Shown one piece after another: positions 3,534-17,611 of a stretch of 64,000 bases of DNA. The notes below the pieces were generated by a model. That model was not told the DNA's origin. It worked only from the letters and a program-made list of their open reading frames with translations, and ran no database searches. Each line of letters begins with the position of its first letter. Positions within the stretch are counted from its first letter, which is position 1. The DNA lies in contig JABSRU010000005.1 in assembly GCA_013214965.1 (NCBI GenBank), forward strand, positions 1-64,000. The letters are read 5' to 3'. This DNA is from Gammaproteobacteria bacterium. GTDB taxonomy: Bacteria; Pseudomonadota; Gammaproteobacteria; Enterobacterales; Psychrobiaceae. Both the position numbers and the translations under genes were made by a program.

Positions 3534-4403
3534 CTACATCGATATTTTTCCTCTAATGTTCTTGGTATTTACACTGCCACTGCCAGCTTCATTAATGGTT
3601 AAGCTGCCAACATCTTCGACATTAATGTGACCGCTACCATCTGAAATGGTGACATGGCCTGTAATGCGGTTAATATCGATGCCACCGCTGCCATCCTGAA
3701 CACTGACATCACCAGAAATATCATTAACGAGCATATTACCACTGCCATCTTTTATCATGACATCACCGCCAATGTTTAAAGCTTTAATGTCGCCGCTGCC
3801 ATCTTTAATATCAAGCGCTTGCGCGACATGATTGACGTGGATGCTGCCACTGTCGTCTTTGATAGACACGTTACCTGCGACATCATCTATGTTGATACTA
3901 CCGCTACCATCCTTAATTTCAAGCGCGCCACCGACATGAGCTACATGAATACTACCACTGCCATCATTTATCGATACATTACCGGTTATATTATCGATAC
4001 TGATATTGCCACTACCATCATTGACGTTTAATACTAAATGGCTGGGTACGCGTACCACGAGATTTAAATAGGGCGCATTATTATGACTAAACATGCTTGT
4101 ATCAGTTTTTGCGGTAATAACGGCGGTATCACGATGTTTAGTTAAAGAAAGCTCATAGTCATTACCGTTTTCACTGCCAATCACCGCATCAACCGTGATG
4201 ATAGAAACATTATCATCGCCGATGATTTTTAAATGGCCTCGCTCTGCGATTATTTCTAAATTTTTTAACCCATTGGCTTTCTTCAAAGTTAACTGCTGTT
4301 TCGTTTCTTTTAAGTCGTTGTCTTTATAATCATGAGCACCGACGACGAGAGCGCCACTGCTGATAAATAATAGGCTGACTGCTACTAACGATAATTTATT
4401 CAT
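3534..4403 (-). CDS. exported DUF4097-type beta-repeat protein
   Basis: This 289-residue protein has a signal peptide (MNKLSLVAVSLLFISSGALVVGA, cleavage near residue 23), a linker of about 100 residues, then nine tandem 18-residue units from residue 129 to the end. Each unit follows the plan DGSG-x-I-x-[VI]-x-x-[VI]-x-G-x-[VL]-x-[IV]-x. Regular DGSG turns with alternating hydrophobic residues predict a right-handed beta-solenoid, as in DUF4097/DUF2807 'putative adhesin' proteins. Unit 4 has DDSG and unit 9 has AGSG. The gene stands alone with its own upstream region. It is probably periplasmic or surface-exposed; no enzymatic motif is visible and its function is unknown. Confidence 0.85.
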   Translation of the reverse strand: MNKLSLVAVSLLFISSGALVVGAHDYKDNDLKETKQQLTLKKANGLKNLEIIAERGHLKIIGDDNVSIITVDAVIGSENGNDYELSLTKHRDTAVITAKTDTSMFSHNNAPYLNLVVRVPSHLVLNVNDGSGNISIDNITGNVSINDGSGSIHVAHVGGALEIKDGSGSINIDDVAGNVSIKDDSGSIHVNHVAQALDIKDGSGDIKALNIGGDVMIKDGSGNMLVNDISGDVSVQDGSGGIDINRITGHVTISDGSGHINVEDVGSLTINEAGSGSVNTKNIRGKISM

Positions 4404-5392: not shown

Positions 5393-6481
5393 ATGAAAAA
5401 GTGCCCTTGCTGCGCGGTAGATGAATTGATTTCACAAGATTTTTACGGTCAAGATGTTGAAAGTTGTCTCAATTGTAATGGACTGTGGTTTGAGCGTGAA
5501 GAGCTCAACAAAGCGCTTTCGGCAGCTGACAATGATGACGATAATGTCAAATTAGAAAACCGCTACGGCGAGCATCTCGGTGGCTCGGATAAACATTGCC
5601 ATGACTGTGATAACGGCTTAGGTAAGTATCATTTAATGCCGGGGTTTGAAATAGAAATTGACGCCTGTAGCGAGTGTCACGGAGTTTGGCTTGATAACGA
5701 TGAGCTTGATAAAGTGATTCATTCACCACTTATTCGAAAGTCATTACTGGAGTTGAATAAGCCGCTGAGTAAAAAAACTTGGTTCTTTCAAATTCTTTCA
5801 CAAATGCCTGTAGAATATAATCTAGAAGTAAAATCAACGCCTTGGGTTGTATATTGTTTATTGGTGCTGAATTTTTCCATTTTTGCCAGTTATTATTCCG
5901 GGTTAATGCCCGAGTTTTATGCTTATGATAATTTTGCGTTGTTTTCAGATCGTGTCACCGCTGGGTCACAATTATGGAGCCTAGTCACTCATATGTATAT
6001 GCATGGTGGTCTTATGCATATTATCGGCAATATGTATTTTCTGTATGTGATTGGCGATAATTTGGAAGATGTTTTAGGCAAAGGAAGGTTTTTAGCCTTA
6101 TATACGGTTTGTGGTTTTTGCGCCGCAGCTGTTCAAATTATCTCTGAACCAGGATCTTCAATACCCATGGTTGGTGCAAGTGGGGCTATCGCCGGATTGT
6201 TTGGTATGTATTTGGTGTGGTTCAGGCACGCGAGTTTATCGTTAATGATTGTTGTTTATCAAAAGAAAGTGAGCCCAATGGTATTTTTTTTAGTTTGGTT
6301 AGCCATCAATTTTATCGGGGTTTGGACCTCGCAAGCTCAAGGTGGTGGTGTTGCATATTGGGCTCACATTGGCGGTTTTTTCGCTGGCTTAGCGATTGGC
6401 CTAGCGTTAAAAAAGAGTCTCTTTGCCAGCAATCCATTGCTGGCGGTGTTAAATAGCAAAGAGCTTAAAATAACTCGTTAA
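5393..6481 (+). CDS. rhomboid intramembrane serine protease with N-terminal zinc ribbons
   Basis: The 362-residue protein starts with two TFIIB-type zinc ribbons (CPCC...CLNC near residues 4-34, and CHDC...CSEC near 65-100), each followed by the usual 'GLWFEREEL / GVWLDNDEL' tail. A rhomboid domain of six membrane helices occupies roughly residues 150-345. The catalytic serine is in GASG (S263) and the partner histidine in AHIGG (H325); the HGGLMHIIGNM motif of helix 2 is present. Such enzymes cut transmembrane helices within the inner membrane. The ribbons may bind metal or protein at the cytosolic face. A good AAGGA site lies 7 nt before the ATG. The substrate is unknown; the adjacent split single-pass membrane protein is a candidate by position only. 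Confidence 0.92.
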   Translation: MKKCPCCAVDELISQDFYGQDVESCLNCNGLWFEREELNKALSAADNDDDNVKLENRYGEHLGGSDKHCHDCDNGLGKYHLMPGFEIEIDACSECHGVWLDNDELDKVIHSPLIRKSLLELNKPLSKKTWFFQILSQMPVEYNLEVKSTPWVVYCLLVLNFSIFASYYSGLMPEFYAYDNFALFSDRVTAGSQLWSLVTHMYMHGGLMHIIGNMYFLYVIGDNLEDVLGKGRFLALYTVCGFCAAAVQIISEPGSSIPMVGASGAIAGLFGMYLVWFRHASLSLMIVVYQKKVSPMVFFLVWLAINFIGVWTSQAQGGGVAYWAHIGGFFAGLAIGLALKKSLFASNPLLAVLNSKELKITR

Positions 6482-6676
6482 TTAATTTTATTTGGCTTGG
6501 CTTTTAATTCGTCGGTTGTTATCGGGGAATTTTAATATTTTAAAGATCCTATTTGTTGCGTTAATTTCGTACAGATACTTGACCTGTTATGTATTCGCAG
6601 GTCATAATAATATACGAAAATAAAGTGATTTTATTTATAAAAAAATAATACACAACAAGATTTTAAGGAAGAAATC

Positions 6677-7258
6677 ATGAACCGTTATAACGTAATGGAT
6701 GAAGCTGAGTTTGAACAAAGCTTTCCTGAGATTTACAATCAAGTATGCACAGAATTAGGCATTGGTTTTGTACCTGATATCTTTCGATGTGTTGTCAATG
6801 CAAGCCCAGAGCTAGCATTATCGTCATGGAACATGGTGCGAATTAATCTCTGCTCAGGTCTACTACCTCGAATTACTAAAGAGTTAATCTTTTCTTTTGT
6901 TGCCAGAAAAAAGAATTGCGAGTATTGCGATATGGCTCATCATGCATTAGCAATACAACATGGATGCTCAATGGATAATATTGATGGAATGCTTAATGAT
7001 ATTCATTCTATAAATAACCCAGCTCTTAAAGCCGTTTTAGAATTTACTAATGCCGCAGTTGATAATGATTTTTCTAAAATCGCTGATTTAGATCGTGATC
7101 TTGGTTTCTTAGGGTTTGGCCAAGATGAAATTGCTGAATTAGTGGGAATGGTTTCATGTGCATTATATATGGTTAACATTGCTGACAGTTTACAGGTGTC
7201 GACAGATCAACGATTTAAAGATGTTGTAAACACTAAAACGCCATTAAAGATAGCATGA
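6677..7258 (+). CDS. AhpD / carboxymuconolactone decarboxylase-like protein
   Basis: This 193-residue all-helical protein has the AhpD peroxidase signature C-x-x-C-x-x-x-H (C81, C84, H88 in KKNCEYCDMAHHALA). Family members are thiol peroxidases or related redox proteins of the cytoplasm, usually acting as oligomers. A clear AAGGAAG Shine-Dalgarno precedes the ATG. The stop codon overlaps the start of the following GGDEF-EAL-like gene (ATGA, 7255-7258), so the two are translated together. That suggests a redox or peroxide sensing role linked to a regulatory protein rather than a generic detoxification enzyme, but this is inference. Strong -10-like AT-rich DNA lies upstream (6580-6640). Confidence 0.82.
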   Translation: MNRYNVMDEAEFEQSFPEIYNQVCTELGIGFVPDIFRCVVNASPELALSSWNMVRINLCSGLLPRITKELIFSFVARKKNCEYCDMAHHALAIQHGCSMDNIDGMLNDIHSINNPALKAVLEFTNAAVDNDFSKIADLDRDLGFLGFGQDEIAELVGMVSCALYMVNIADSLQVSTDQRFKDVVNTKTPLKIA

Positions 7259-9174
7259 TTCGTACTGTTTATAATAACCCTGATAAAAAATTAAGCGCCG
7301 ATATAATATCGCAATCAAATGCTAAAATAGTGGAGGCAGCGTTGCGTACGGCAAGCTTAGTTGATGTCAGTAAGGTCATCGAATCGGATTATCAACTTTC
7401 TAATGATTTACGGAGCCTCTACAAAACAACTCGGTTCTCTATTGATATTAACACCTGTGTTTTAATCAGGTTGGTTAATGGTCTATGGTGGGAATCGTGT
7501 GTTGTTATTAGAAACAATCGGCTTCGTGATAATATTAAGTGGCAAAAAGTTGATAAAACAATTTCAAATGTTATTGATTCGTTATTTGAAACAAAACAGG
7601 GCCTTAATAAAGAGTTGGCCGCCAGTGATCTCACGGCAGGAAGTACTGAATTAAGTGATATATTATCTCATGGTGATATTATATTTCAGCGCTTTAATAC
7701 GGTGCATGGTGGCGCAGTATTTAAACCCAGAGGGAAAAATAAATACTCCCAGTATGACGAAGATTTTCTAGTTCATTTCACCTCTCTAATTTCCTTTTGT
7801 GTTAACAAAGAACTTTCTAGTAACTATCTCAGTAATATATATCTAAATATTAAAGGGATTGCCGATAAAATTGGTCAGGGTGCAACCAATGAGCAGGCGA
7901 TAAGGAAAATGTTTTTTAATTATGAATTGGGTGTAAATACTAAGCTTGGTTTTCTTCGGATGCTAAAGTCATTTACCGAAACGTCCCATAAAACTGCGTT
8001 TGTAGTTGTGCTAAAAATAGATCAAGCAAACGGTGCTGTTTGCTTACTGAATGAATTTACTCATCGTCAATTTATAAAAGAATCCATTTCACGTATGGCC
8101 TCGGTAGAGGAATTGAGAAAAAATGCGACACTGTCTTATACTGATAAAAATGAATTTTCATTTATTTTAGTTCGCTCACAGGAGAGCGACGTTGTTGGTA
8201 TTTTAAATGAGTTAATTAATCGGTTTAATAAAAAATTAACCGTTGATAATTTTAATATCAAGTTCGAATTACAAGCTGGATATATAACAACCGCTGACGA
8301 GAATAATGATTCACAAACTCTTTTTAATAAGGCTAGCATCGCCTGTTGCCAAGCAAAAAAAAGTCATATACAAAAAATAATTGGATATCACGAACAAATT
8401 ATTCAGAGCTTGCAGTTAAATTTCGCAATAGCCAAAGGGCTACCTAAAGCTATATTGAATAACGAACTTGAACTCTGTTATCAACCGATAATAGATTTAG
8501 CAAACATGACTAAAAAACCTGAAAAATTTGAATCATTTATTCGTTGGAAACATCCTGAATATGGAATCGTTTATGATGATAAAATCATTGAGCTTGCTAA
8601 TCTCAGCCAGGAAATCATTCCGCTGGGCTATTGGGTTATCGAGAGTGTTTGTCGAGAGTTGTCATATATTAATATTGATGATGATATCAGTATTAGTATT
8701 AATTTATCGAGGGGGCAGTTGAGCGACCCTAAGCTTGTGTCGACAATTATAGAAATTGCTAAAAGATATAATGTAGCGCATCCAAGGATCATGTTCGAAC
8801 TGTCTGAACAATCAATAATGTTTGATATTAACTTATCGAAAGAAATTATTAGTACGCTCAAAAGTCATCATTTTAAAGTCGCTATCGATGATTTTGGTCT
8901 TGGTCAAATGTCCTTTAATTATTTGTTAGATGTTGACGTATTAAAGATGAGCAAAAATTTTATGAATAATGCTATTAAAAATAAAAAAACAGTAATTATT
9001 GGTGCATCAATCGTTAAACTTGCAAAAGATTTGAGCTTTAAAGTGGTTTGCCTGGGTATTGATAATAAGCAACAGCTTGAGATGGCTGAACGTTGGGGGA
9101 CGGATCTTGTGCAGGGTGACTTTATTGGTGAGGCTAAGTATTGGAGTCACTTGTTTACTAAGTTAGCGCTTTAA
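7255..9174 (+). CDS. degenerate GGDEF-EAL protein coupled to the AhpD-like gene
   Basis: The protein has 639 residues and no obvious membrane segment. Residues ~1-200 are unassigned and may form a GAF-like sensor. Residues ~210-390 form a degenerate GGDEF domain with the signature changed to DKNEF (~296-300), so cyclase activity is not expected. Residues ~395-635 form an EAL domain: the EAL motif reads ESF (~426), NLS, ELSE and IDDFG are kept, but the AEGVE segment reads CLGID, removing a metal/catalytic glutamate. It is therefore likely a c-di-GMP binding or protein-interaction module instead of an active phosphodiesterase. The 4-nt overlap with the upstream gene implies translational coupling. 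A bidirectional terminator follows. Confidence 0.85.
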   Translation: MIRTVYNNPDKKLSADIISQSNAKIVEAALRTASLVDVSKVIESDYQLSNDLRSLYKTTRFSIDINTCVLIRLVNGLWWESCVVIRNNRLRDNIKWQKVDKTISNVIDSLFETKQGLNKELAASDLTAGSTELSDILSHGDIIFQRFNTVHGGAVFKPRGKNKYSQYDEDFLVHFTSLISFCVNKELSSNYLSNIYLNIKGIADKIGQGATNEQAIRKMFFNYELGVNTKLGFLRMLKSFTETSHKTAFVVVLKIDQANGAVCLLNEFTHRQFIKESISRMASVEELRKNATLSYTDKNEFSFILVRSQESDVVGILNELINRFNKKLTVDNFNIKFELQAGYITTADENNDSQTLFNKASIACCQAKKSHIQKIIGYHEQIIQSLQLNFAIAKGLPKAILNNELELCYQPIIDLANMTKKPEKFESFIRWKHPEYGIVYDDKIIELANLSQEIIPLGYWVIESVCRELSYINIDDDISISINLSRGQLSDPKLVSTIIEIAKRYNVAHPRIMFELSEQSIMFDINLSKEIISTLKSHHFKVAIDDFGLGQMSFNYLLDVDVLKMSKNFMNNAIKNKKTVIIGASIVKLAKDLSFKVVCLGIDNKQQLEMAERWGTDLVQGDFIGEAKYWSHLFTKLAL

Positions 9175-9220: not shown

Positions 9221-9252
9221 AAAGCCCAATCAATTTTCATTGATTGGGCTTT
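9221..9252. terminator. bidirectional rho-independent terminator
   Basis: A 13-bp perfect stem (AAAGCCCAATCAA, 9221-9233, with TTGATTGGGCTTT, 9240-9252) closes a 6-nt loop, with A-runs and T-runs on both sides. It sits between convergent genes and can end transcription of both the GGDEF-EAL gene and fis. Confidence 0.85.
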
Positions 9253-10842: not shown

Positions 10843-11616
10843 ATGCAAAGAGATGAAACGTTAAAATTGGATATAGTAGACAAAGCGAAACTGGTCACTT
10901 TAATAGGTAAAGGCATTACTGAGGCTGAACAAGAATTAGTTAGCTTGTATTGGCACGGTATTTTTTTCTTACTCAATAAACGCACCGGTGATAGCGCGTT
11001 GGCCGCTGATTTAACTCAAGACACTTTTATTGTGGTGATTAAGCACGCTCGGCAGGGCACAATTAAAAATCCTCAGGCCATTGGCTGTTATATTCGCCGA
11101 GTTGGTATTAATTTGATGATTGCGCATTTTCGAAAGCAACAACGTCATCACACCGACAATGATGATCAAATTGATATTCACATTCCCTCCCAACTTCCAC
11201 CTTTTAGTCAAGCATTACACGCCGAACAGTTAGTTGAGTTAATGCAAACCCAGCTTAATTTAATGACGGTGCAACGAGATAAAGACATTCTGTATCAGTT
11301 CTATGTATTACAACTCGACAAACTCGATATCTGCGCTGCGCTTGATTTAAGTCCTAATCATTTTGATCGTGTGGTTTTTCGGGCTAGAGCACGTTTAAAA
11401 CAACAGATAATAAACAGCATTAACGACGATGACTGCCAAGAGCGCGGCACTATATTGCTGCAATTAGCCTTAGTCACGATGCTATCCCCGCTAGTCAGTT
11501 CGGTGACGCCAACAAAAATACCTCAATGGGTGGGAGAAATCCCATCCTTGTCTCACTGTAATGATATATCTGCTGCTAAGTTCTGTGTTATCAAGAGCCG
11601 GGGTGCAACATCATGA
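10843..11616 (+). CDS. ECF-like RNA polymerase sigma factor with C-terminal extension
   Basis: The 257-residue protein has a sigma region 2 (LAADLTQDTFIVVIKHARQG, residues ~52-72, and AIGCYIRRVGINLMIAHFRK) and a region 4 helix-turn-helix (LDICAALDLSPNHFDRVVFR, ~155-185). These direct core polymerase to a limited promoter set. After region 4 there is a tail of about 60 residues with a hydrophobic stretch (ILLQLALVTMLSPLVSSV) that is unusual for ECF factors and could be a membrane-proximal or regulatory element. It is the first gene of a tight operon; its stop overlaps the anti-sigma start (ATGA). Start codon spacing to a weak AAGAG site is long, so the exact start is less sure. Confidence 0.85.
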   Translation: MQRDETLKLDIVDKAKLVTLIGKGITEAEQELVSLYWHGIFFLLNKRTGDSALAADLTQDTFIVVIKHARQGTIKNPQAIGCYIRRVGINLMIAHFRKQQRHHTDNDDQIDIHIPSQLPPFSQALHAEQLVELMQTQLNLMTVQRDKDILYQFYVLQLDKLDICAALDLSPNHFDRVVFRARARLKQQIINSINDDDCQERGTILLQLALVTMLSPLVSSVTPTKIPQWVGEIPSLSHCNDISAAKFCVIKSRGATS

Positions 11617-12341
11617 ATGAAAATTTTGAAAATAATGATTTTATGGATCAAAAATATATTGAAGATCATCAAATCGTTGTTCGCTATAGCCGAGGACAAT
11701 TAACGCCTGAGGAAAGTATCGCTTTTGAGATTTATTTACTGGACAAACCTGAACTTATTGAGCAATTAGAGCTTGAACGATTACTGATTAAACATTTACC
11801 TCAGGTTGATTTTAGTCAGCAACAAAAAAAATCAGCTGTTAGCTGGCGGCCGTCATCCATTGCGATATTACAACCGATAACTCGCTGGTTAAGTGCGCCA
11901 ATAGGGGCTAGCGTAACGACTGCTGCGGTGTGTGTGATGTTGTTTAGTGGCTTTTGGCAATTATCAGCGCCAGCGCAATGGGCCGGACAAATATCGGCTA
12001 AGGTCGATATGATTTTTGTCGCGCCAATGCGTAGTAGTGACCGTCGAAACAATAATGCGGTGGCGACGTTAGCCCAATCGAAAAAGAGTGAGTTGACGAT
12101 GCTGGTGATCCAGCCAAGCAATGTCGTCGCAACAAGTTTTGATGTTCGCATTGTTAGCCAACAAAGTGGTGCAATCATTGTTAAACAGACTAAGGTTCAA
12201 ACTCAAGGAATGGGCGATGTCGTTCTTTCTGTCCCCAGTACTTTGTTAACCGCCGGATTGTGGGATATTGAACTGACTCCAACCAACAGTAATCAAGAAA
12301 AAGAAGTGTTGGTGTTAGAGGTAATAGCCATAAAACAATAA
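11613..12341 (+). CDS. membrane-anchored anti-sigma factor-like protein
   Basis: The N-terminal ~70 residues (VVRYSRGQLTPEESIAFEIY...) resemble the anti-sigma/zinc-finger-like 'GxLxPEExxxFExxLL' fold found beside ECF factors, but without the Cys/His zinc ligands. A single membrane helix follows at about residues 97-116. The remaining ~125 residues would be periplasmic and beta-rich (ELTMLVIQPSNVVATSFDVR...). The likely role is to hold the preceding sigma factor inactive until an envelope signal arrives. It overlaps the sigma gene by 4 nt and precedes the peroxidase by 8 nt. The pairing with the sigma factor is inferred from position and layout. Confidence 0.75.
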   Translation: MNENFENNDFMDQKYIEDHQIVVRYSRGQLTPEESIAFEIYLLDKPELIEQLELERLLIKHLPQVDFSQQQKKSAVSWRPSSIAILQPITRWLSAPIGASVTTAAVCVMLFSGFWQLSAPAQWAGQISAKVDMIFVAPMRSSDRRNNNAVATLAQSKKSELTMLVIQPSNVVATSFDVRIVSQQSGAIIVKQTKVQTQGMGDVVLSVPSTLLTAGLWDIELTPTNSNQEKEVLVLEVIAIKQ

Positions 12342-12349
12342 AGGGGAAG

Positions 12350-13711
12350 ATGATGACTGAATTGACAGATCAACAGATTGAAGATTTAACTAGAAGAATG
12401 ACAAAGGTTAGTCCTCATTATAAAAGCAATTTAGATGCCGGTTTAACGTATTTGGGCCAATTAATCTCTCATGATATTGTACCCGCGACGACTAAAGACT
12501 CAGCGTCACGTCATGTCACACCAGCGCTTAATCTTGATAGCTTTTATGGTGACATTTCACTTGATAACTTAAAGCATAATCCTGGTAGTAGCCCTTACCT
12601 TGATGATCATTGTCATGGTTATTTTTATCTTGATGATTGTACTAATTGTGATTTTAAACGCGTTGACAAAAATGGTAAACATATTGCGATAATTCCTGAA
12701 CAGCGTAACGATCAGCATATTATGATCGCCCAATTACAGGTGTTTTGGCTGAATTTTCATAACTATCTATTAAAAAATGAGCTAGTTACCGATGCATTAC
12801 AAGCCAGAAAAGTAGTGACCTTGGTGTTTCAATTAATCGTGATTGAAGAGTTTTTACGTGAACTGTTGACTCGCGATGTGTTCGAGTATTGTTTCAGGCA
12901 AAATCATCAATATGATTTAACTGAAATGTCTGAGTCTATTCCTGATTTTTTTTCCTATGCGAGTTTTCGATTTGGTCATAGCATGCCTCGTACATTTTAT
13001 GAGCTTAAAATGATTCCAAAAGATGCAGAACATAACTTTATTCCTTCTCATGTGTTTAAACCGGTTCCATTAATGGATTTATTTTCTAGTGGTAAAAAAA
13101 TCTGTATAGAAAAAAAGATTGATTGGTCAATGTTTTTCACCTCGGGTCATGATGATATTTTTTGCCAAAAATCATTTGCAATTAATACGCATATTACTGG
13201 AATAGGTATTAAAGAAGACATTAACATCGCTGAGCATGTTGTGAGTGGTAATTTGAAAGTTGCTCGTGCGGTGAAATTACCAACAGGAATTGAAATGGCC
13301 ACTAAAATACTGGAAAAACTACCCAGCTGCTCACATCATCATATCCAGTTAATCACCGATCAAGATTTCGCATCAACAGAATTAGGTCAAGTAGGAATAG
13401 GAATAAAAGAATTACCATTATGGCCATACATATTGTTAGAAGCTGAATTACAAAGTAAGAATAGAACGACCGGTCACGGTGGTCGGCACTTGGCGGGGTT
13501 AGGTAGTATTTTAAATGCGAGTGTTTTAAAGCGTTCAATGATGGCGGCTCAATTCTCGGTGTTTAAGCAGGGGCAATATGATTTTGATGACGTGATTGAG
13601 CGCTTAGGGAAATTTGGTGAAAAATATCAAGATGTTGATAACAGTGCCAAACAATTAACCATGATGACATTAATCACTATGATGAAATCAGGAGAAAATG
13701 ATGCACACTAA
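12350..13711 (+). CDS. animal-type haem peroxidase (An_peroxidase superfamily)
   Basis: The 453-residue protein carries the haem-peroxidase landmarks in order: a distal histidine in GLTYLGQLISHDI (H41), NLDSFYG (~61-66), a catalytic arginine in IPEQRNDQH (R119), QVFWLNFHNYL (~130-140), and the proximal histidine in FRFGHSMP (H210). These match cyclooxygenase/myeloperoxidase-type enzymes ('peroxidase-cyclooxygenase' superfamily), which use hydrogen peroxide to oxidise halides, tyrosines, thiols or lipids. No signal peptide is seen, so it should act in the cytoplasm. GGGGAAG precedes tandem ATGs (12350, 12353). Its last 14 nt overlap the next gene, whose product has a dense cysteine cluster and is a positional candidate substrate or partner. 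The substrate is not deducible. Confidence 0.8.
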   Translation: MMTELTDQQIEDLTRRMTKVSPHYKSNLDAGLTYLGQLISHDIVPATTKDSASRHVTPALNLDSFYGDISLDNLKHNPGSSPYLDDHCHGYFYLDDCTNCDFKRVDKNGKHIAIIPEQRNDQHIMIAQLQVFWLNFHNYLLKNELVTDALQARKVVTLVFQLIVIEEFLRELLTRDVFEYCFRQNHQYDLTEMSESIPDFFSYASFRFGHSMPRTFYELKMIPKDAEHNFIPSHVFKPVPLMDLFSSGKKICIEKKIDWSMFFTSGHDDIFCQKSFAINTHITGIGIKEDINIAEHVVSGNLKVARAVKLPTGIEMATKILEKLPSCSHHHIQLITDQDFASTELGQVGIGIKELPLWPYILLEAELQSKNRTTGHGGRHLAGLGSILNASVLKRSMMAAQFSVFKQGQYDFDDVIERLGKFGEKYQDVDNSAKQLTMMTLITMMKSGENDAH

Positions 13712-14264
13712 ATTTTCATGTATTAAGGATTGGGCATCGGTGCCATCAGATCCAGAACGTCGGGTAACCCAGTCGTGGAATCCGTTAATTGATCCCGAAG
13801 TGTTAATTTATTCGCCGTATCCTGAAGGTGACTATCTAGTGGCATCCTATGTGATGGAACCGACCGATGCGAAGCCTTACATCAAGCAAATATTGACAGG
13901 TGGCGATTGGGAACCATTAATGCGTTATGTTGCTGGCCAGTTAAAATTAAAACTTGAATCCGAATGTCGATGCTTGGTGGTGTGTCACTGTCCTTGTCCT
14001 TGTCCTTGTCAATCGAGTTGCCATTGTAGTGCCTCCCAAAAAACGTATTATTTGATTGATGAAAATTTTAATCAAAACGGTGATGGTAATTCTCCCCTGA
14101 TTTTTGGCAAGGTTAATAATTGGGAAATAAAATCTTGGCGCGTTGATGTTAATCGAGAAAGCCAAGAGTTTGTTGATAGCCTAACGTGGGTTAATACGAA
14201 TAAGGATAAAAATATAAAGTCGGAAGATACCACGCACAGTTGGCGGCTCTATGATGAGCGTTAA
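13698..14264 (+). CDS. protein with a nine-cysteine cluster, unknown function
   Basis: I do not recognise this 188-residue protein. Its outstanding feature is nine cysteines between residues 90 and 110 (C90, 92, 96, 98, 100, 102, 104, 108, 110), including CHCPCPCPC. The DNA for the Cys-Pro run is an imperfect tandem hexamer (TGTCCT). The flanks look globular (WNPLIDPEVLIYSP..., then KTYYLIDENF and WEIKSWRVDV). Such a cluster could bind metal or be oxidised or crosslinked. There is no signal peptide. The start overlaps the peroxidase end by 14 nt and the CHAT gene follows after 8 nt, so the three are co-translated or nearly so. Function as peroxidase substrate or redox sensor is inference. Confidence 0.75.
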   Translation: MMHTKFSCIKDWASVPSDPERRVTQSWNPLIDPEVLIYSPYPEGDYLVASYVMEPTDAKPYIKQILTGGDWEPLMRYVAGQLKLKLESECRCLVVCHCPCPCPCQSSCHCSASQKTYYLIDENFNQNGDGNSPLIFGKVNNWEIKSWRVDVNRESQEFVDSLTWVNTNKDKNIKSEDTTHSWRLYDER

Positions 14265-14272
14265 CCTATTGA

Positions 14273-17200
14273 ATGCCTAATTATAAACTTTGGTGTGCAT
14301 ATTCATTAGTCTTACTGCTATTTAGTGTTGGCGTACATGCACAACAGCAATTAATATTGCGAGATGTTCACTTAAAACCTCAACAAGTGAGGGTGTTTCT
14401 GACCGCAGGGCAGGGCATGAATGCTGACTTAAGCTTAAGCCAACAGGGACGTTTGTGGTTAGTTCAGGGGGATGCTCGCGTTTCTAGTGTACGTGAATTT
14501 ACGGTACTGGGTCCTTTTAAAACGCCAACGGATATTCAAATAGCATTAACGAAAGACTATACCCATCGCAATCTATTTCAATTAAAGCTGACTGAAATTA
14601 CGAAGCTTAATCCTACAAAAATTGCTGACTACCGCCTTTTATTTCTTGCTTCACAGTTATGGTACAAAAATAGTCAAGAGCCTCGTCAACAAGCGATTAA
14701 ACTATTGCAACAGCGACTCGAATTAACGAGTAAGCAATCGCCATTGACTGATGAAATCGCTTTATCATTAGCGCATATGACGAGAGGCATTAAGGATGAA
14801 ATTGCTTGGGGTTATCTAAATAAGGCCGCTATAGAGACCTTGGTATTAAAAGATGAATTGGCACTACTACAATCTTCGATAACCGCTCAGCTCGACAATC
14901 ACACTTTGATCGCAAAGCAATGTCAATATCTTGATTATTTAAGCTCGGCTCGCCCTAACACGTTATATCATCGCTTTGAGTCAATTAAGGCTAACGTTAA
15001 ATTAGCCATTTCGCTCATTGAATATACGCGTCATTCGTTATCACTCAATGATAGTAAACGTCTAGAAGAGATGGCCGAATGTCATCAGGTGTTGCCAGGA
15101 ATAAATAAAGAAACAGTAACCTCAAGCGCGAAAAAATTGTTAGATAGTGCGCAATTAGCAGTGGCGCTGTCGCCAGAATTACGGTTAGAGACTAATGTTT
15201 TTGGCGGTTACTGGCATTATTATAATGTAACTAATGAACATGTTGCCGCAGAAAAAGTCGCACGCTTGGCAATTAGTGAACAACATCAGGTTGTTGATCT
15301 ATCATTGTTGCGAGATCAATATAGCCGTCTGGCCACTTCATTGATTAGGCAGGGTGATTTGTTATCCGCTTTATATTACTTACGATTAAAATTAAATTTA
15401 GTAAATAGCGCGATGTCTGGAGAGGAGCAGTCAGCAATCTATTTTAATTTAGCCTATAACTATCGGCTGCTAGGGGAAAAAGCGTTGGCTCGGCGCTATT
15501 TTAAGCGGGCGTTGGCTATCGATGAACTCACTGAAGGAATTGTTGATTGGCAGCTTGATAAACATTGCACCAGCTCCGGGATAAATACCGCGATGGTGAT
15601 TTCACAATTAGGCATCTTAGATCGACTCGATAATAACTTAGCTAGAGCTTACAAAATGCACTTATGTGCACGGAATGTTTTTAGTCACACAGATCAATAT
15701 TATGAAATAGTGGCGATGCTGGAAACCGCGAAAGATGAGTTGTCACTTGGGTTAATTGTCGAATCTAAAGTGTCGGCTCAACAAGTGTTAGCCGATCCAC
15801 GCGTGATGCAACCTCAGCGATTAGATGCGCTATTAGTGTTATTAGAATTAGCGATTATCGATCGTGATAATGAAAGCGTCGAGCAACTGACCGAGGAAAT
15901 GTCGCGACGGTTGGGTTATCAAAACATTTATCAATCATCAAACCTTGAGCAAGCTATTAGTAATTATCCCGTACGACAAATTCAATTTTTTGAGTTATTG
16001 GTGCGCTATTATAGTGACAATGTATATCGTGCGGATATGATCCGTATCTTTGGCGATAAAGCGTTATCATTAATAGCAACTATCAACGCTAATATTGAAA
16101 ATACTCAAGCGTGGTCTGCCGCTCAATATTCATTGTTGAGTCAATATATTGATGCGCTGTTTCAAAAGGGTGCCATTAGTCATCGGGCTCATTATCCTAA
16201 AATATTTGAAATTCTAGAACGTTATTATTCGATTGATCTCACGAGAGAACGTTTGAAGTATGTGACTAACATGACGACGCCAGAATCTGCTGATAAATTA
16301 CAGCGATTATGGGCTGCTCGGTTAGATGCACAGCGAGCCGTTATTTCTGCTTCTTCGGAGAACAGAGATTTAGCGCGAAGCTTAGCGGATGCTGCCAATG
16401 ATCAATATCGTGCTTTCCTAATGGTTAAATCAGAGCGCGAAATCAAGCCAGTTATTAATCAATCGATTAAAGATATTCAGCGAAAAATGCCAGTTGGTGA
16501 TATTTTTATTCGGTATTTTATTGATCGTCGCGGGAGTTTTTCGTTAGTTATCACTAAAACACATTGGTCAATTAACCCCTTAGCAGACCAAGCTCAGATC
16601 CGGAAATCGACACAGGCATTCATGGCTCAGTTAGATCGCCGAAATTACCGCCAGCATATTATTGATAGTGATTTATCAAGCATCTTACCGCTTAAGTTAC
16701 TGCGCTCAGGTCAATATCGTCGTTTGATCTTCGTCGCCGACGACACCCTGCATAAAGTGCCTTTTTCTGCACTAAATATTGGAACTGCCAATAATCATCA
16801 ATACCAACCGCTGATAAATAACGTCGAATTAATTAGAGCTTATTCCGCCCAGAATTATTATCTCCCATTACAACACCAGTCGCTGTCCCGGATCAAAAAA
16901 ACGGCTGTGGTTAAAGATCTTGTGATGTTTGCCGATCCTATCTTTAAAAGCGCAGTTTCAAATACAGCAGGACAAGGGCGAGATATGAAATTTAAACAAT
17001 GGCTTAATCAACTTCCTCGGTTGCACCATACCGCGAGGGAAGCGGCGACAATTAGCAAATTATTTTCAATCAATTCGGTGATTACCGCATTAGAGCATCA
17101 AGCCACTAACCAATTTCTAATGTCAGATATTGCCCGTCGTGCCAAAATTTTACATATTGCGACCCATGGTTATTTCAATCCGAAAACCCCCGATATTGTT

Positions 17201-17611
17201 GGTTTAGTCACCGCGGCGCAAGCTGATGATAATGGTCAATCCAGTGGTTTTTTAAGCTTAGAGGAGTTACTGAGTAAGCCTTTTTATAATGATTTGGTGG
17301 TAATAAGTGGTTGTGAAACGATGTTGGGACAATATTATAAAGGGTCGGGTAATCGCAGCATTATTCGTGGCTTATTATCGCAAGGGGCGACATCGGTGAT
17401 TGGGACATTGTGGCAGGTAGCCGATCGACCTACGGCGCAATTTATGACGTTATTTTATCGTCATCTGAAACAAACACGGGGTAATATTGCTAAAGCACTA
17501 CAACTGACTAAACAGCAGTTTGCCCAATATGGACGTTATCGTCATCCTAAATATTGGGCAGGGTTTGTCTTAACCTCATCCCATACCCCGCTAGTGCAGG
17601 GTATGGATTAA
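14273..17611 (+). CDS. exported TPR-CHAT caspase-like protease
   Basis: The 1112-residue protein has a signal peptide (MPNYKLWCAYSLVLLLFSVGVHAQQ), a long helical middle with tetratricopeptide-like repeats (for example SAIYFNLAYNYRLLGEKALA near residues 385-405), and a C-terminal CHAT domain from about residue 730. The CHAT catalytic dyad is visible: histidine in LHIATHG (H965) and cysteine in VVISGCET (C1014), with the downstream GLLSQGATSVIGTLW and YWAGFVL motifs. CHAT proteins are clan CD proteases related to separase and caspases. Export to the periplasm separates it from most CHAT effectors acting in cytoplasm. It is the last gene of the five-gene operon. Target proteins are unknown. Confidence 0.9.
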   Translation: MPNYKLWCAYSLVLLLFSVGVHAQQQLILRDVHLKPQQVRVFLTAGQGMNADLSLSQQGRLWLVQGDARVSSVREFTVLGPFKTPTDIQIALTKDYTHRNLFQLKLTEITKLNPTKIADYRLLFLASQLWYKNSQEPRQQAIKLLQQRLELTSKQSPLTDEIALSLAHMTRGIKDEIAWGYLNKAAIETLVLKDELALLQSSITAQLDNHTLIAKQCQYLDYLSSARPNTLYHRFESIKANVKLAISLIEYTRHSLSLNDSKRLEEMAECHQVLPGINKETVTSSAKKLLDSAQLAVALSPELRLETNVFGGYWHYYNVTNEHVAAEKVARLAISEQHQVVDLSLLRDQYSRLATSLIRQGDLLSALYYLRLKLNLVNSAMSGEEQSAIYFNLAYNYRLLGEKALARRYFKRALAIDELTEGIVDWQLDKHCTSSGINTAMVISQLGILDRLDNNLARAYKMHLCARNVFSHTDQYYEIVAMLETAKDELSLGLIVESKVSAQQVLADPRVMQPQRLDALLVLLELAIIDRDNESVEQLTEEMSRRLGYQNIYQSSNLEQAISNYPVRQIQFFELLVRYYSDNVYRADMIRIFGDKALSLIATINANIENTQAWSAAQYSLLSQYIDALFQKGAISHRAHYPKIFEILERYYSIDLTRERLKYVTNMTTPESADKLQRLWAARLDAQRAVISASSENRDLARSLADAANDQYRAFLMVKSEREIKPVINQSIKDIQRKMPVGDIFIRYFIDRRGSFSLVITKTHWSINPLADQAQIRKSTQAFMAQLDRRNYRQHIIDSDLSSILPLKLLRSGQYRRLIFVADDTLHKVPFSALNIGTANNHQYQPLINNVELIRAYSAQNYYLPLQHQSLSRIKKTAVVKDLVMFADPIFKSAVSNTAGQGRDMKFKQWLNQLPRLHHTAREAATISKLFSINSVITALEHQATNQFLMSDIARRAKILHIATHGYFNPKTPDIVGLVTAAQADDNGQSSGFLSLEELLSKPFYNDLVVISGCETMLGQYYKGSGNRSIIRGLLSQGATSVIGTLWQVADRPTAQFMTLFYRHLKQTRGNIAKALQLTKQQFAQYGRYRHPKYWAGFVLTSSHTPLVQGMD
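17581..17606. terminator. weak hairpin over the stop codon region of the CHAT gene
   Basis: CCATACCC (17581-17588) pairs perfectly with GGGTATGG (17599-17606) across a 10-nt loop, overlapping the last codons of the CHAT gene. Only a scattered T-run follows (near 17616), so termination is uncertain. The next 50 nt repeat AAGTACT-like motifs. Confidence 0.3.

Follow-up and report, generated by a model that had tools for sequence, protein, structure and literature searches.

AhpD-like proteins encoded beside soluble kinases, diguanylate cyclases and degenerate GGDEF-EAL proteins: possible sensor subunits in bacterial signalling

Why should a protein related to a peroxidase family be encoded together with a degenerate protein of cyclic di-GMP (c-di-GMP) signalling? 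The question is raised by two adjoining genes at positions 6677-9174 of a stretch of 64,000 nucleotides (nt), analysed as a whole and called the window here, which is positions 1 to 64,000 of contig JABSRU010000005.1 (assembly GCA_013214965.1) from a gammaproteobacterium of the family Psychrobiaceae. The first gene (6677-7258, forward strand) encodes an AhpD-like protein of the CMD superfamily with 193 residues, and the second (7255-9174, forward strand) a soluble signalling protein of 639 residues, made up of an N-terminal region, a degenerate GGDEF domain and an EAL domain. Our answer, to which we give a probability of roughly 0.55, is that the AhpD-like protein serves the product of the adjacent gene as its own cytoplasmic sensor or as a regulatory subunit. 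It belongs to a clade whose members are frequently and tightly paired with soluble output proteins of several types, and the outputs differ by sub-clade.

The pairing was measured in a census of 122 distinct AhpD-like open reading frames (ORFs), whose neighbours were scanned with six home-made domain models, for six signalling domain types only. A signalling gene lies within 11 nt (gap -11 to +11) at 14 of the 23 loci that hold the 25 near ORFs (score >= 88), versus 1 of the 97 more distant ORFs (score < 88). The Fisher p of 1.7e-11 for this comparison is to be read with the facts that related rows are not independent, that we chose the score cut and that the scoring profiles were made mostly from coupled members. 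At the 14 loci the partner is a hybrid histidine kinase six times, another kinase twice (one HATPase kinase and one HisKA kinase with tandem AhpDs), a diguanylate cyclase four times and a degenerate GGDEF-EAL protein twice. Two of these loci needed a decision: G904 (gap 4 nt) was counted by hand, the scan having placed its AhpD start too early, and G929 was counted through its second AhpD. Three looser pairs, with an alphaproteobacterial PAS-kinase (L115, 203 nt), an HD-GYP protein (L165, 41 nt) and a GGDEF-EAL protein (L166, 99 nt), were left out of the counts; the partners at L165 and L166 are membrane proteins, and the AhpDs of all three fall outside the clade described below (L115 and L166 in the tree of 47 rows, L165 in that of 93). 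None of the 13 tightly coupled partners that were checked has a transmembrane segment; the remaining partner, the L079 kinase, is 88% identical to that of Moritella.

The clade itself was seen in a tree of 47 rows, made from all 25 near ORFs, one protein from Adhaeribacter and 21 rows that we chose among the other ORFs. Twenty-six rows form one clade with support of 100/100, and it holds all 16 coupled rows, that is, 15 rows from the 14 loci and that of Adhaeribacter swui (Bacteroidota); the other ten rows in it are uncoupled. None of the 21 hand-chosen rows outside it is coupled, the looser pairs L115 and L166 being labelled as uncoupled. A quick tree of 93 of the 122 ORFs, from which short, long and low-scoring ORFs were left out, gives the group a Shimodaira-Hasegawa-like (SH-aLRT) support of 89. 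Inside the clade, sub-clades separate by output: one of hybrid-kinase rows (100/100), one of cyclase rows (96/95) and one of the window type (100/100). This is consistent with each output having been acquired once among the rows sampled.

The earlier note on this DNA had called the window genes an unusual signal pair, and it turns out that the coupling recurs in other marine bacteria: elsewhere, members of the same AhpD clade are paired with histidine kinases or with cyclases whose GGDEF motif is intact. A near-type AhpD occurs in 4 of 394 genomes of the order (G000, G005, G106 and G157), and in G106 (Moritella sp. PE36) and G157 its gene overlaps that of a hybrid histidine kinase. A contig scan gave five loci, in Colwellia TT2012, Pseudoalteromonas phenolica, Moritella PE36, a Colwellia metagenome-assembled genome (MAG) and an alphaproteobacterial MAG, and the next gene downstream is a kinase gene at all five, four times at -8 to +2 nt and once at 203 nt; an earlier contig scan from two rows only had given no match. 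Among 295 genomes of the Colwellia family, coupled kinases occur in G890 (hybrid), G807 (HATPase kinase, 9 nt) and G929 (HisKA kinase), and a GGDEF cyclase lies just upstream of the AhpD gene in G820, in G904 and twice in G853; the GGDEF motif is intact in all four of these cyclases. Plasmid searches with three AhpD-like proteins produced one informative case, on a plasmid of Adhaeribacter swui (L200, 4968-6413), where the AhpD-like gene is followed after 24 nt by that of a 277-residue protein. This protein has a stretch resembling the phospho-acceptor helix of histidine kinases (HisKA 13.2 bits, below the cut-off) and no ATPase match; judged by eye, it may be a GAF-type, kinase-less protein. 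A plasmid match in Sinorhizobium (H16) has no signalling neighbour.

In the window, the AhpD-like gene is preceded directly by a good Shine-Dalgarno-like sequence (AAGGAAG, 6665-6671, forward strand). The earlier note had reported a 4-nt overlap of the two genes, a CxxC-x3-H motif in the first product, and DKNEF and CLGID in place of GGDEF and AEGVE in the second, and all of these are there. The ORFs have the stop/start sequence ATGA (7255-7258, forward strand) in common, and no ribosome-binding sequence was seen before the second start. Since that start has no such sequence of its own and falls within the AhpD-like gene, coupled translation of the two genes is plausible. The nearest promoter-like match is at 6579-6608, one of 15 such matches versus 14.3 in shuffles. 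A stem-loop of 14 pairs, a probable terminator called on the reverse strand, lies at 9221-9252 between the second gene and a convergent fis-like gene.

The CxxC-x3-H motif of the AhpD-like protein (6917-6940, forward strand) reads C81-E-Y-C84-D-M-A-H88, and E69 is located 12 residues before C81. Both the motif and a Glu 12 residues before it are retained in the window and kinase-coupled AhpDs, and a thiol switch would be possible in both. Solved AhpD-like chains match the window protein (PDB 2ouw, E 9.8e-7), and its matches to the CMD/AhpD models are weak, below the curated cut-offs (PF02627, 20.0 against 23 bits; TIGR00778, 22.7 against 27.8; TIGR01926, 33.0 against 81.8); three kinase-coupled relatives pass PF02627 with 36.9-39.2 bits. 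Because its scores lie below these cut-offs, we class the window protein only as a divergent AhpD-like protein. In the host genome no protein reaches the PF02627 search threshold, the window protein included, although 12 of 14 control genomes give matches in the same search. When the host genome was searched with the window protein, nothing besides the query itself was found.

The partner has no membrane segment (maximum Kyte-Doolittle 19-mer 1.47). Its N-terminal region (residues 1-245; 7255-7989, forward strand) has no Pfam match and is GAF-like by eye only. In the alignment to 5m3c, the best solved relative, L-G-G-D-E-F stands against T-D-K-N-E-F in the window protein, with DKNEF at residues 297-301 (8143-8157, forward strand); the GGDEF domain scores 22.5 bits in Pfam, below the cut-off of 23.8, and the inhibitory RxxD site reads RKNA. 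The EAL domain (residues 396-626; 8440-9132, forward strand) is much better preserved (Pfam E 3e-53, 181 bits). According to the accessible part of a published study, the metal ligands of RocR are E175, N233, E265, D295, D296 and E352 (PMC7911125). By motif and by the alignment to 5m3c rather than to RocR itself, five of these six are kept in the window EAL domain, the sole loss being the E352-type Glu of AEGVE: A-E-G-V-E of 5m3c stands against C-L-G-I-D, with L600 (9052-9054, forward strand) replacing the Glu. The other catalytic-motif residues looked at (Q410, E426, R430, N483, E515, D545, D546, K564 and Q620) are all kept, and loop 6 is altered, reading DDFGLGQMS. The description of this protein as inactive in the earlier note is a prediction: the GGDEF domain is clearly degenerate, and the EAL domain has one lost ligand and the altered loop. 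We consider the partner very probably non-catalytic; it probably makes no c-di-GMP any more and cleaves none. The opposite case, in which it retains phosphodiesterase activity under some condition and the pair is an ordinary regulated c-di-GMP enzyme, has the other catalytic-motif residues looked at and the 181 bits in its favour; nevertheless, with one metal ligand replaced by Leu and loop 6 changed, we regard it as unlikely, and a homologous pair bears on it further.

This pair was found in G005, the only one of the eight other genomes of the genus searched that has it (2 of 9 with the window genome, a patchy distribution). Its proteins are 58-59% (AhpD-like) and 40% (GGDEF-EAL) identical to those of the window, and it occupies another locus with different neighbours, a LysR-like regulator (named by eye) before it and a solute-binding protein gene after it; this SBP_bac_3 gene (L080, 9975-10724) has its start within the last part of the GGDEF-EAL gene, and a fragment of a gene that looks similar to it lies upstream of the pair in P. 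phenolica (L112, 4063-4572). A search for the pair in other genomes, as the earlier note had proposed, thus finds the same two genes adjoining at another locus, so the adjacency of the two genes is more than chance. Homologues with intact GGDEF and EAL residues, or without the AhpD neighbour, which would have spoken against the proposal, were not found: of 384 genomes of the order, 2 have the partner's N-terminal region, the window genome and G005, both with the AhpD gene. The 4-nt overlap, which in the earlier note ties the expression of the two genes, is not conserved, as the gap in G005 is 11 nt. The G005 partner has EPNEF for GGDEF, and in its EAL domain the Asn has become S and DD has become SN, while CEGID is kept. 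It has therefore lost the Asn and both Asp instead of the Glu, which counts against an active phosphodiesterase; with such different losses, catalysis would have been lost, or be in the course of being lost, separately in the window and in G005. The N-terminal region and the AhpD neighbour are maintained in G005 despite these different ligand losses. Because two diverged homologues, both still open reading frames, lost different catalytic residues, a conserved non-catalytic role of the partner is suggested.

The same data bear on the idea that the genes adjoin by chance or hitch-hiking, with no functional link. The window pair is AT-rich (GC content 0.361 and 0.343, where the 46 window ORFs have a median of 0.417), and few genomes of the genus have it, as would be the case for transferred DNA. 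However, two unrelated loci of the genus show the same pairing, as do 14 loci of the clade, and these counts make chance adjacency very improbable.

What, then, could the AhpD-like protein do for its partner? The first Cys of CxxC is gone in all four cyclase-coupled AhpDs, so CxxC chemistry is excluded as the common function of the clade, and a CxxC switch would not be possible in the cyclase-type proteins. The loss speaks for a task other than that of a CxxC peroxidase. The Cys-less type was searched in 360 genomes of the class and matched in 66, in each case less strongly than in the cyclase-coupled AhpDs; where a locus existed, the neighbours of these matches were covered by the automated scan alone. 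A CxxC cysteine is also lost in the orphan AhpD of G908 and in G929, where two AhpDs in tandem precede the HisKA kinase, the first with CxxC and the second with CIFS, without the second Cys; this tandem could be a pair of an active and an inactive subunit in front of the kinase. Such tandem AhpD-like genes lie at L154 (4088-5266) and L153 (2934-4133); in G861 the tandem AhpDs have only a kinase fragment 642 nt away.

We propose that the AhpD-like protein would bind a small molecule or react with it, the candidates being peroxide, a hydrophobic ligand and disulfide stress. Through contact with the GAF or GAF-like region at the partner's N-terminus, the state of the AhpD-like protein would then reach the output. 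For the window pair this would be the GGDEF-EAL protein, most likely as a binding switch that acts on a further target, because c-di-GMP synthesis is predicted to be lost and cleavage probably lost. For the hybrid kinases, the predicted fold of the N-terminus (four rows, L111-L114) is GAF-like, with a predicted local distance difference test score (pLDDT) of 80.8; compared with known structures, the model has a best Foldseek E of 7e-4 and VIA Z up to 12.2, and its best matches are mostly GAF-containing chains (phytochromes, PDE6 and others; Z 10-12). Pfam GAF does not match this N-terminus, which we take as a GAF domain as predicted from the model. A PDB sequence search with the GAF-like region of the cyclases gave no match. 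The earlier note had spoken of a redox-sensing enzyme feeding a non-catalytic receptor; a conserved two-gene unit with a very probably non-catalytic partner agrees with this, and redox sensing is not established, the cyclase-coupled relatives having lost the first Cys.

GAF domains bind small ligands. Thus, it is conceivable that an AhpD-like peroxidase or CMD-type enzyme makes or removes a small molecule that the partner's GAF-like domain reads, with no contact needed. The CxxC-x3-H and upstream Glu kept in the window and kinase-coupled AhpDs and the GAF-like model of the kinase N-terminus would suit this possibility, while the cysteine losses in the four cyclase-coupled AhpDs, the G908 orphan and the second G929 copy go against it; we consider it rather unlikely. 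Several points also weigh against the proposed sensor subunit. The complete CxxC-x3-H of the window protein is compatible with an enzyme, and gene neighbourhood is not interaction. The branch that leads to the window pair is long (1.8 changes per column), with support of only 93/83 for the placement of the pair inside the clade. A single-sequence model of the window partner's N-terminus failed (pLDDT 34), and a profile comparison of the window, kinase, cyclase and G807-kinase N-termini gave no similarity above noise; homology among the partner N-termini is accordingly not claimed. Nine of the 23 near loci lack a signalling gene next to the AhpD-like gene; no signalling neighbour was seen at G714 (the best class-level AhpD-like match), G807 (C11 and C23), G904 (C7), G855, G821, G884 and G908.

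There are precedents for both the gene arrangement and its parts. H-NOX and NosP are small stand-alone sensors that act on a kinase in some species and on a c-di-GMP enzyme in others, as described in the accessible part of a published account (PMC8738867). The likeness is the gene of a small soluble protein beside interchangeable outputs, in the AhpD pairs at 14 loci within 11 nt. In contrast, H-NOX and NosP are haem proteins sensing nitric oxide, and the AhpD-like protein has the AhpD/CMD signature: no haem-binding H-NOX or NosP domain was found in the window protein, only CMD-type matches (Pfam, NCBIfam). By analogy, it most likely works like H-NOX and NosP without being a member of those families. 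With the peroxidase-related AhpD/CMD family (PF02627, TIGR01926) it shares the sequence family and, in the window and kinase-coupled AhpDs, the CxxC-x3-H; it differs in the window protein's scores below the curated cut-offs, in the coupling to signalling genes and in some coupled members that lack a CxxC cysteine.

A CMD gene conserved beside a regulatory gene is also known from the ECF41 sigma factors, where, according to the accessible part of the paper, the genes differ in order and orientation, no target other than the neighbouring CMD gene could be detected and a role of this gene in signalling was not seen by the authors (PMC3426412). Following this precedent, the AhpD-like gene might be a stress-response output for detoxification, whose place in one operon with the signalling gene would serve expression alone. 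However, the CMD gene is there a transcriptional target of the sigma factor, whereas the partners here are kinases, cyclases and degenerate GGDEF-EAL proteins, not transcription factors; the cyclase-adjacent AhpDs lack the CxxC that is present in all ECF41-linked CMD proteins, by the same part of that paper (PMC3426412). The partner types and the lost Cys weaken this explanation, which we hold to be improbable.

On the side of the output, degenerate EAL proteins that bind c-di-GMP exist, as stated in the accessible part of a review (PMC7288161). The window partner resembles FimX and LapD in that both GGDEF and EAL are changed at catalytic positions; it differs from them in its other N-terminal region, its solubility, its AhpD-like partner and the Leu for the Glu of AEGVE, and it scores 31.3 bits with the curated LapD model NF045673, far below the cut-off of 1020. 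The same part of the review lists E653 of Xanthomonas citri FimX among the residues contacting c-di-GMP (PMC7288161); we infer that this is the position of the AEGVE Glu. The loss of that Glu may lower c-di-GMP binding by the window EAL domain. A literature search over titles and abstract openings, with subscription papers and most preprints outside its scope, found no description of an AhpD/CMD protein coupled to a histidine kinase, a diguanylate cyclase or a GAF protein.

The window has other features near the pair. On the reverse strand, three consecutive ORFs (1386-2854; 125, 220 and 127 residues) look like one broken archaeal-type ATPase, the middle one with a weak ATPase_2 match, and are probably a pseudogene; a 289-residue protein (3534-4403) has many DGSG-type repeats and is beta-helix-like (PF21930, 30.7 bits). 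On the forward strand, a Rhomboid protease with two N-terminal TFIIB-type zinc ribbons (5393-6481) comes before the pair. An operon-like run after it (10843-17611, forward strand) encodes a sigma-70 region 2 protein, a 242-residue protein, an animal-haem-peroxidase-like protein (453 residues), a 188-residue protein and a TPR-CHAT protein (caspase-like, 1112 residues); it is possibly a stress or defence island, and its peroxidase gene is likewise AT-rich.

Taken more widely, and with somewhat less than even confidence, the clade of the AhpD/CMD fold, from Gammaproteobacteria to Bacteroidota, may consist of sensors that stand alone inside the cell, dock on domains of the GAF type and drive interchangeable outputs, namely hybrid kinases, kinases, diguanylate cyclases and c-di-GMP receptors. 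The thiol switch would be kept in some members and lost in others, which would then be pure ligand-binding or protein-binding sensors, and in the window pair the output would also be without catalysis. If true, this would be a sensor type in bacterial signalling that has so far gone unrecognised, with a former peroxidase fold as the input of kinases and c-di-GMP proteins. The signal of soluble GAF-kinases and GAF-cyclases is often not known, and a partner encoded by a single gene would give a direct handle on it. The window pair would be an example of how enzymes may drop their reaction and yet keep a regulatory role, in both of its members.
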